33,731 nucleotides of DNA from Clostridiales bacterium. GTDB lineage: Bacteria; Bacillota; Clostridia; Christensenellales; Aristaeellaceae. Shown piece after piece: positions 16,382-19,213 of this stretch. A program made the translations under genes and the position numbers. The notes under the pieces were generated by a model. That model saw only the letters and a program-made list of their open reading frames with translations. It did not search any database and had not been told where the DNA came from. The stretch lies in NCBI GenBank assembly GCA_012513645.1, contig JAAZBU010000089.1, positions 1 through 33,731 of the forward strand, written 5' to 3'. Position 1 is the first letter of the stretch, and every line of letters starts with the position of its first letter.

Positions 16382-17569
16382 ATGAAAAAGCTACTCTCTC
16401 TGGCTCTGGTGCTGAGCCTGGCGCTGACGATGGCGCTGCCGGCCTTTGCGGCCGCCCCTGCAAAGCTCAAGGTGTGGGGCGCGCAGGACGATCAGGCGAT
16501 CCTGCAGGAAATGGTTGAGTCCTTCAAGGCCGCTCACCCCGACGTGGCGGTGGAAGTTGAGTTTGGCGTGGTGGGCGAGCCCGATGCCAAGACCAAGTAC
16601 CTGGAAGATCCCGCCGCCGCAGCTGACGTGTTTGCCTTTGCCGGCGACCAGCTGATGGACCTGGTGGCCGCGGGCGCGCTGTACGAGGTGACCCTCAACC
16701 GCGAAGCCATCGAGGCCGCCAACTCCCCCGGCTCCATCGAGGCCGCCACCATTAACGGCACCCTGTATGCCTACCCCATGACGGCCGACAACGGCTACTT
16801 CCTGTACTATGACAAGTCCGTCATCAGCGAGGAGCAGGTGAAGACGCTGGACGGCATTCTGGAAGCCGCCAACGCCGCCGGCCAGAAGGTCATGATGGAC
16901 GTTTCCAACGGCTGGTACATCGCCAGCTTCTTCTTGGGCGCCGGCGGCAAGCTGGGCCTAGACGCGGAAGGCAACCAGACCTGTGACTTCAACAACGAGC
17001 GCGGCGTGGCCGCCGGCGAAGCCATCAAGGCCTTCACCGCCAACGATGCCTTCATGACCGGTGACGTCAACACCATGCTGCCCGGCTCCATGGGCGACAC
17101 CATCGCCGCCGGCGTGGCCGGCACCTGGCTGGCCGAGGGCATCCAGGCCAAGCTGGGCGACAACTACGCCGCCACCAAGCTGCCCACCTTCACCATGGCG
17201 GGCGAGCAGGTGCAGATGGCTTCCTTCGCCGGCTACAAGCTGATGGGCGTCAACTCCCTCACCGAGTACCCCGAAGAGGCCATGGCGCTGGCCGAGTGGT
17301 TCACCAACGAGGAGAACCAGATCAAGCGCTTTGAGACCCGTGCCCTGGGCCCGGCCAACAGCAATGCCGCCGCGAGCGAGGCCGTCAAGGCCAACGTGGC
17401 ACTGGGCGCCCTGGCTGAGCAGTCCGCCTTCGCCGTCCCCGAGAAGGACGTGCGCGGCAACTACTGGACCCCCGCCGAAGCCTTTGGCACCACCATGGAA
17501 GCCAAGGACTACAGCAAGGACGTCAAGACCCTGCTGGACGAGATGGTCGCTGCCATCACCGCCAAGTAA
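16382..17569 (+). CDS. maltodextrin-type extracellular solute-binding protein
   Basis: This 395-residue protein resembles MalE-type family 1 sugar-binding proteins, with the early KLKVWGAQDDQAILQEMVESF motif region and a NEENQIKRFETR-type C-terminal hinge area. It would deliver oligosaccharide to the two permeases encoded downstream. The signal peptide (1-24, MKK start, AFAA cleavage region) has no lipobox cysteine, so the mature protein should be released by signal peptidase I rather than lipid-anchored. This is unusual for a single-membrane Gram-positive. It heads the operon behind the promoter and operator, and a terminator-like hairpin follows it. Maltodextrin is inferred from the downstream enzymes. 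Confidence 0.88.
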   Translation: MKKLLSLALVLSLALTMALPAFAAAPAKLKVWGAQDDQAILQEMVESFKAAHPDVAVEVEFGVVGEPDAKTKYLEDPAAAADVFAFAGDQLMDLVAAGALYEVTLNREAIEAANSPGSIEAATINGTLYAYPMTADNGYFLYYDKSVISEEQVKTLDGILEAANAAGQKVMMDVSNGWYIASFFLGAGGKLGLDAEGNQTCDFNNERGVAAGEAIKAFTANDAFMTGDVNTMLPGSMGDTIAAGVAGTWLAEGIQAKLGDNYAATKLPTFTMAGEQVQMASFAGYKLMGVNSLTEYPEEAMALAEWFTNEENQIKRFETRALGPANSNAAASEAVKANVALGALAEQSAFAVPEKDVRGNYWTPAEAFGTTMEAKDYSKDVKTLLDEMVAAITAK

Positions 17570-17580
17570 CAAACCCTGCA

Positions 17581-17614
17581 CGGGGCTGTACCTTCGGGTG
17601 CAGCCCCGGTTTTT
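17581..17614 (+). terminator. UUCG-capped attenuating hairpin between binding protein and permeases
   Basis: A 12-pair stem (one G-U pair) is closed by a C(UUCG)G tetraloop (loop 17593-17596) and followed by five T (17610-17614). Inside an operon it would stop most transcripts after the binding-protein gene, keeping permease levels lower. Confidence 0.85.
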
Positions 17615-17639
17615 CTATGTATTGCCAGCTGATGAGCTC

Positions 17640-17797
17640 ATACTAAACGAGAACGTTAACGCAAGGATGGGCGCGGGATTTTTTCGGCTGCGTGAAGCCG
17701 AAAGAGGAAGGCGTAGCGGCGCTACGCTGACCGAGAGAGGCAATGCGCAGGCGGAAAAAGACAAGTCCCATCAAAGCGTTAAGGTTTGAGTTAGTAT
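17640..17797 (+). other. 158-nt nested inverted-repeat element, structured RNA or MITE-like
   Basis: Three nested complementary pairs enclose the element: 17640-17646 with 17791-17797 (ATACTAA/TTAGTAT), 17656-17662 with 17776-17782 (TTAACGC/GCGTTAA), and 17666-17671 with 17767-17772 (GATGGG/CCCATC). Inside are two perfect hairpins: 17682-17689 with 17696-17703, and 17711-17717 with 17721-17727. The pattern is that of a multibranched RNA; the ends also read as imperfect 22-base terminal inverted repeats. It follows the operon-internal terminator and ends 13 bases before the permease's ribosome-binding site. I could not match it to a named RNA family. Confidence 0.6.
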
Positions 17798-17821: not shown

Positions 17822-19213
17822 TTGACCGGCTTGACGGCGGCCAGGCGCAAGGCCAAAGCGCGCAAAGGCATTTTCCGGGAACTGTATGAAACCTTCAGGG
17901 ATGGCGATGCCGGCACGCGGCTGTCCTTTTTGGTCATGGGCTTTGGCTCCCTGGTCAAAGGGCAGGTCATCAAGGGCCTGCTGTACCTGGCCAGCCAGGC
18001 GCTGCTGGTGTGGTATCTGGCGGGCTTTGCCTGGCAGTACCTGCGCAAGCTGGGCACGCTGGGCGATGTGGGCATGCAGCGGGTGTGGAGCGAAGAGCGG
18101 CAGATCTTCGTGCGCACACCGGGCGATAACTCCCTGCTGATATTGCTTTTCAGCGTGCTGAGCATCATGGTGGTGCTGGGCTTTCTGGCGCTGTGGCGCG
18201 CCAACATCCGCTCGGCCTATCGGGCGCAGCGCCTAAAGCAGCAGGGCAAACGCCTGCCCACCTTTGCGGACGACATCAAGAGCATGCTGGACGAGCGCTT
18301 TCACCTGTCCATGCTGACGATGCCCTCGCTGATGGTGGTGGCCTTTACGCTGCTGCCCACCATCTTCATGATATTGCTGGCCTTTACCAACTTCGACCAG
18401 GCGCACCAGCCGCCGGGCAACATGTTCACCTGGGTGGGGCTTGATAACTTCCGCAACCTGTTCGGCGGCCACCCGCTGATTGCCAATACCTTTGGCAAGG
18501 TATTCGGGTGGACTATGGCCTGGGCGGTGCTGGCCACCTTTACCAACTACCTGCTGGGCATGGTTGTGGCCATCATGATCAACAACAAGGGCATCAAGCT
18601 CAAGGCCATGTGGCGCACCATCTTTGTGGTCACCATCGCGGTGCCGCAGTTTGTCAGCCTCATGCTGATGAGCCAGATATTGCACGACCAGGGACCGCTC
18701 AACGCGCTGCTCAAGCAGTTTGGCTTCATCGAGCAGAGCATCCCCTTTTTGACGGATACGGCCACCGCGCGCCTGACCATTTTGGTGGTCAACCTGTGGG
18801 TGGGCATCCCCTACACCATGCTGATCACCTCGGGCATTTTGATGAACATCCCTAAGGACCTCTACGAAAGCGCCTCCATCGACGGGGCCAGTCCGGCCAG
18901 GATGTTCTTTTCCATCACGCTGCCCTACATGCTGTTTGTCACCACGCCGTACCTGATCACCGCCTTTGTGGGCAACATCAATAACTTCAACGTCATCTTC
19001 CTGCTCACGCGGGGCGGGCCGATGGTCACCGAGTATTATCAGGCCGGCAAGACCGACCTGCTGGTCACCTGGCTGTACCGCCTGACGGTGGACAGGCAGG
19101 ATTATTCGCTGGCATCCACCATCGGCATCTTTGTGTTCGTCATATCGGCCGGGCTGTCGCTGTTGGTATTTAACCTGTCCGGCTCCAGCCGCAGGGAGGA
19201 GGAGTTTCAGTGA
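17822..19213 (+). CDS. MalF-type sugar ABC transporter permease
   Basis: This 463-residue membrane protein has an N-terminal region of about 150 residues with extra hydrophobic segments (around 32-50, 53-68 and 101-122). The MalF-like core of six segments follows from about 165. The EAA loop that contacts the ATPase is visible as ESASIDGASPARMFFSITLP (around 345-364). It forms the inner-membrane channel with the next gene's product. The start is a TTG at 17822, chosen because GGAGGGG lies just upstream and no ATG is available before the first hydrophobic segment. The length resembles Bacillus MdxF. A stable RNA element precedes it. Confidence 0.9.
   Translation: MTGLTAARRKAKARKGIFRELYETFRDGDAGTRLSFLVMGFGSLVKGQVIKGLLYLASQALLVWYLAGFAWQYLRKLGTLGDVGMQRVWSEERQIFVRTPGDNSLLILLFSVLSIMVVLGFLALWRANIRSAYRAQRLKQQGKRLPTFADDIKSMLDERFHLSMLTMPSLMVVAFTLLPTIFMILLAFTNFDQAHQPPGNMFTWVGLDNFRNLFGGHPLIANTFGKVFGWTMAWAVLATFTNYLLGMVVAIMINNKGIKLKAMWRTIFVVTIAVPQFVSLMLMSQILHDQGPLNALLKQFGFIEQSIPFLTDTATARLTILVVNLWVGIPYTMLITSGILMNIPKDLYESASIDGASPARMFFSITLPYMLFVTTPYLITAFVGNINNFNVIFLLTRGGPMVTEYYQAGKTDLLVTWLYRLTVDRQDYSLASTIGIFVFVISAGLSLLVFNLSGSSRREEEFQ

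Follow-up and report, generated by a model that had tools for sequence, protein, structure and literature searches.

The near-palindromic sequence between the binding-protein and permease genes analysed here is, in all probability, a miniature inverted-repeat transposable element (MITE) specific to its lineage, of which about 40-50 copies, this one included, are present in the 2.0-Mb genome of an uncultured member of the Clostridia. The family is lineage-specific and MITE-like, with an unusual conserved internal fold, and is itself new. "The window" denotes the whole 33,731-nt stretch of DNA that was analysed. A first-pass annotation had singled out nucleotides 17640-17797 and had offered a non-autonomous mobile repeat with terminal inverted repeats as one of several readings; dispersed copies, target duplications and an empty site now speak for that reading, and the covariance-model search that it proposed has found copies at many unrelated sites, the outcome that it had assigned to a mobile repeat.

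The families of the genes that surround the element suggest an operon for malto-oligosaccharide uptake and use, with a second permease, an amylase, a glucanotransferase and a phosphorylase lying 3' of the ABC permease. Its relevant features are the following:

16382-17569, + strand: upstream gene, extracellular solute-binding protein (SBP_bac_8)
17581-17614, + strand: operon-internal intrinsic terminator, 12-bp stem and T run, 3' of the binding-protein gene (terminator scan)
17822-19213, + strand: downstream gene, ABC permease (BPD_transp_1), starting 24 nt past the element

The strong terminator hairpin (17581-17608, followed by a T run) lies ~30 nt before the element, which had been correctly placed directly after an operon-internal terminator and just before the permease ribosome-binding site. 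Since a terminator-like hairpin is found at the matching place in the relatives L031-L035, all without the element, the terminator is older than the insertion. The window copy would have landed just past this ancestral terminator of the binding-protein gene and ahead of the ribosome-binding site of the permease, in a gap that is short and without the element in L032-L035 and in the same-genus genome G003. The closest relative (L031, in the gap upstream of 3001) has at the window site a different insert of ~80-100 bp, apparently palindromic (AAGGAACGCT...AGCGTTCTT).

The element itself can be divided as follows:

17638-17640, no strand: left copy of the target-site duplication, TCA (from the sequence and the TNA statistics of 81 copies)
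17641-17796, + strand (the better-folding strand): element proper, TACTAAAC...GTTAGTA, a near-palindromic MITE-like repeat of 156 nt
17641-17661, + strand: left terminal inverted repeat, the 5' arm of the outer helix (helices 1-3)
17674-17760, + strand: core module with cross-genus conservation (model R2)
17700-17738, + strand: apical part, with three tandem G.A motifs and the apical hairpin 17711-17727
17700-17701 with 17737-17738, + strand: tandem G.A motif
17704-17705 with 17733-17734, + strand: tandem G.A motif
17708-17709 with 17729-17730, + strand: tandem G.A motif (A.A/A.G in the window copy)
17774-17796, + strand: right terminal inverted repeat, the 3' arm of the outer helix
17797-17799, no strand: right copy of the target-site duplication, TCA (from the sequence and the TNA statistics of 81 copies)

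The outer A (17640) and T (17797) of the stretch originally singled out are thus parts of the flanking TCA duplicates; the right arm of the window copy lacks one T of GTTTAGTA. The + strand of 17640-17797 folds at -76.1 kcal/mol, as a single long interrupted rod (shuffled sequences, -42.2 +/- 3.4; z -10.06), and none of 200 shuffles folds as well, which upholds the proposal of a fold beyond chance. Two perfect hairpins had also been described, and both are present in the sequence, but only the one at 17711-17727, the apical hairpin of the rod, is conserved. The other (17682-17703, TTTCGGCT/AGCCGAAA) competes with the long-range fold, is broken at one pair in about half of the copies and is not conserved. 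A coding role was rejected: all six frames of the window copy contain a stop codon and no frame is conserved.

BLAST identifies ~40 copies in the element's own genome, many of them full-length and 90-97% identical, at unrelated sites on many contigs and in both orientations. The covariance model returns 42 strong full-length copies, together with weaker and truncated ones (matches of the model to the opposite strand, which are expected for a palindrome, being left out of the copy counts). When these copies are aligned with their flanks, the ends are fixed (ATACTAAAC...GTTTAGTAT) and the sequence outside them is unrelated. There are two subfamilies, beginning TACTAAAC... and TACTGAAC..., and most copies have the terminal inverted repeats TACTRAAC...GTTYAGTA. 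Among the flanks of 81 copies, T occupies position -2 in 80% and A position +2 in 91%, and the bases at -1 and +1 are identical in 51 copies, where 22 are expected and the maximum of 500 shuffles is 35. These statistics imply a 3-bp TNA target duplication and an element proper that runs TACTAAAC...GTTTAGTA. The TNA duplicates match in 63% of copies and differ in the rest; the window copy is flanked by TCA on both sides. Two other accounts of the flanks were tried and set aside: a TA-only (IS630-like) duplication, because the 81-copy test gave TNA, and stop-codon targeting alone as the source of variable 3-nt TYA repeats, for which target duplication accounts.

A filled site and its empty counterpart are available at yajC-rph (names given by similarity read off the translated sequence rather than by a family search). 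In the element's own genome this site reads CTCGCCTAA, then the element (TACTGAAC...GTTCAGTA), then TAATGC (TAATGCATC after the element); the duplicated triplet is TAA, and yajC terminates at the first of the two. In a same-genus genome CTCGCCTGATTTGG is uninterrupted. The element is missing from G001 and G004, and also from G003, where the alignment is less certain.

The IS1031 subgroup of the IS5 family is reported to prefer TNA targets and to generate exclusively 3-bp repeats (PMC12016507). The element resembles it in both target and repeat length, but has no transposase gene, and no insertion sequence (IS) with matching ends was found at the loci of the two transposase families searched; the reported ends of ISLrh (GAACCTGTCTAGTATCT) differ from those of the element. 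The TNA duplication agrees with mobilization of a MITE by a transposase of the IS5/IS1031 type, and we infer that a DDE enzyme of that type, acting in trans, would recognize the TACTRAAC ends and cut at TNA. The transposase loci of these two families, PF01609 and PF13340, revealed no autonomous element bounded by TACTRAAC in the relatives, which are metagenome-assembled genomes (MAGs) with poorly assembled ISs. Searching two genomes for the terminal-repeat pattern yielded, in the loci inspected, ends of the element, longer variants of it and truncated copies. Close to a contig edge, the end of another IS interrupts one own-genome copy (L016:1503-1661, G000:C92:8080-8237), which suggests that ISs have been lost from the assembly. 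The right end of this truncating IS is GTTAATCAGCGGTTCCTTAA, and it matches the inverted repeats of an IS in a same-genus genome (L191:1004-2241) that encodes a 347-aa PF01609 transposase.

Derivatives of the element keep both ends; some are shortened internally to 87 bp, and others, 264-318 bp long, have gained hairpins at the apex. The latter, with this added hairpin-forming sequence, were seen in G170 (L211, L212, L213, L222 and L223), and the 318-nt form folds with z -7.4; a 259-bp form (L074) is present in the element's own genome. At L122, L123, L116, L125 and L126 the same core lies within other terminal repeats, possibly with CTAG or TTAA duplications, and the terminal repeats of L122 resemble those of the IS in L191.

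The distribution of the family is narrow at high rank and broad within the host's family, where related elements occur in 63 of 150 genomes and 28 of 50 genera. Order-wide, 18 of 297 genomes have matches, with weaker scores outside the host's family except for L237, which belongs to another family of the order and is a full-length relative with the same ends. Class-wide, the two matching genomes of 391 are the element's own and one of the same family. The nearest named database records are MAGs, the closest being labelled uncultured Clostridia bacterium; viral contigs (searched with an exact core pattern), phages and plasmids gave no match. Weak model matches in other families of the order (L242-L248) are other palindromes that share a CGTAGC...GCTACG-like apical hairpin, and are possibly distant relatives.

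Insertion follows a distinctive pattern. No own-genome copy lies inside a called gene. Because TAA and TGA are TNA triplets, insertion into such a stop codon rebuilds it, and insertion would accordingly be tolerated both between genes and in stop codons. In 18 copies the right-hand duplicate coincides exactly with the stop codon of a gene that is directed at the element; the mirror case occurs once (binomial p 8e-5). At the right end 60 of 87 neighbouring genes face the element (p 5e-4), while those at the left end show no preference; the better-folding strand is thus usually antisense to the gene that touches the element. Relative to upstream genes the + strand has no preferred direction (47 co-directional, 39 not), and a lagging-strand preference of the HUH kind was not seen in the GC skew (12/24 and 18/39). 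Some called genes (at L021, L066, L138, L148 and L149) end ~20 nt inside the element, consistent with its right end supplying them with a short C-terminal tail and a stop codon. Integron attC sites were considered for their foldable strand and stop-codon position and rejected on end consensus and dispersal: attC sites have RYYYAAC...GTTRRRY ends and lie in cassette arrays, whereas the element has CTRAAC...GTTYAG ends and its copies are dispersed in both orientations. The YPAL repeat of Yersinia reportedly also inserts closely downstream of stop codons.

What might such an insertion do where it now lies? By analogy with REP, ERIC and YPAL repeats, a co-transcribed role in mRNA stability between binding protein and permease is plausible. 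A specific version, in which the element stabilizes the mRNA of the binding protein or serves as an RNase III cleavage site and so sets the binding-protein:permease ratio, is a reasonable candidate, though we would not call it probable. The position between terminator and permease ribosome-binding site and the great stability of the hairpin are in its favour, as are reports that NEMIS and ERIC RNAs affect adjacent mRNAs (PMC2229807). On the other side, most binding-protein transcripts should stop at the upstream terminator, and relatives do without the element. Since the window copy lies past the terminator, only read-through transcripts would carry it; in these, as a stable hairpin, it may influence how the permease message is degraded or processed.

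The analogies are themselves imperfect. The ERIC, NEMIS/Correia and RUP MITEs are likewise 100-160 bp long, intergenic and bounded by terminal inverted repeats, with folded transcripts and proposed effects on mRNA, but they have a TA target in place of TNA, and the literature searched yielded no description of internal loops conserved across genera in them. The REP/BIME sequences at E. coli malE-malF, of a class linked to Y1 transposases, are likewise stem-loop DNA repeats between binding-protein and permease genes. REPs are 20-40 bp long (PMC3733652), compared with 156 bp and a target duplication for the element. YPAL (RU-2), a multicopy repeat of 168 bp, is reported to have folded transcripts, target duplications and filled and empty sites (PMC2229807), but the duplicated stretch ranges from 3 to 26 bp and the inverted repeats lie internally, in contrast to the fixed TNA duplication and terminal repeats of the element; it belongs to a different phylum, and the likeness is one of descriptions, not of sequences.

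Two features are more than a plain MITE needs: several types of terminal repeat around the same core (L116, L122, L123 and L125), and the conserved inner fold. The orientation of the element relative to stop-codon targets (18 copies to 1) likewise goes further than the usual MITE. Comparison of the aligned copies indicates that this fold is conserved on one strand only. Among 38 own-genome copies, pairing reaches 96% (34-43% in slid controls) and 22 of 44 pairs show compensatory double changes, a count that none of 500 shuffles reaches; among 45 core sequences from many genera, the values are 94% (36-51%) and 21 of 25 pairs, with the reservation that the compared sequences share ancestry, so that covariation counts overstate independence. 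In each of the 38 own-genome copies the + strand gives a better fold than the complementary strand, and G-U exceeds A-C among minority cells by 55 to 21, and by 60 to 30 in the core set, although palindromic copies went into building the models and G-U is permitted by the structure. The tandem G.A motifs are kept in 34-39 of the 45 core sequences, with standard pairs at those positions in only 0-5, while neighbouring pairs change with compensation; the three motifs, like an A-A loop, vary less than many of the helix pairs that surround them.

One tentative reading of these observations is that the element is a mobile structured-RNA or single-stranded DNA (ssDNA) element, its conserved + strand core being the working part and its DNA ends exchangeable. 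The retention of the G.A motifs amid compensated pairs, the excess of G-U, which is expected under constraint on the + strand, and the similar cores within other terminal repeats (L116, L122, L123 and L125) all point that way; the non-independence of the counts and the construction of the models weigh against it, as does the absence of a preferred direction relative to upstream genes. The proposed binders of the core (a transposase, an RNA-binding protein of the host or a trans-acting regulator) are hypothetical. More speculative still is a DDE-type miniature transposon whose spread needs a conserved folded single strand, an RNA or ssDNA module with the three tandem G.A motifs, movable between terminal repeats via several transposases and subject to a gene-end orientation rule. 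On the preferred MITE reading itself, the fold would have been kept because the + single strand, as RNA or ssDNA, is recognized by something that the element needs.

It is rather unlikely that the covariation between the arms instead reflects DNA-level correction of the palindrome by template switching at replication. Terminal pairs do change together in single copies (L006, L018, L020 and L070), but correction should remove internal mismatches as well, and the bias towards G-U also argues against it. Because it would erase the tandem G.A loops, which stay unpaired, the data are better read as selection for a fold of the single strand. A riboswitch, or any other cis-regulatory RNA particular to this transport operon, which had been suggested and for which position upstream of the permease ribosome-binding site, structure and covariation might have spoken, is highly improbable and was rejected on the distribution of the element's ~40 copies at unrelated sites: conservation at the window locus only was not found, the element being absent from that gap in the relatives compared, and an Rfam search (gathering threshold and E up to 10) gave nothing credible.

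The usual view of small mobile repeats is that they are inert remnants of transposons. In more than 24 genera, however, this family has preserved a specific single-strand architecture while its arms drift with compensation, and so lets one ask, in nature, whether a functional RNA or ssDNA module is part of bacterial MITEs. Its self-repairing stop-codon targets and strong orientation rule would also provide a simple account of how such an element settles harmlessly at the ends of genes.
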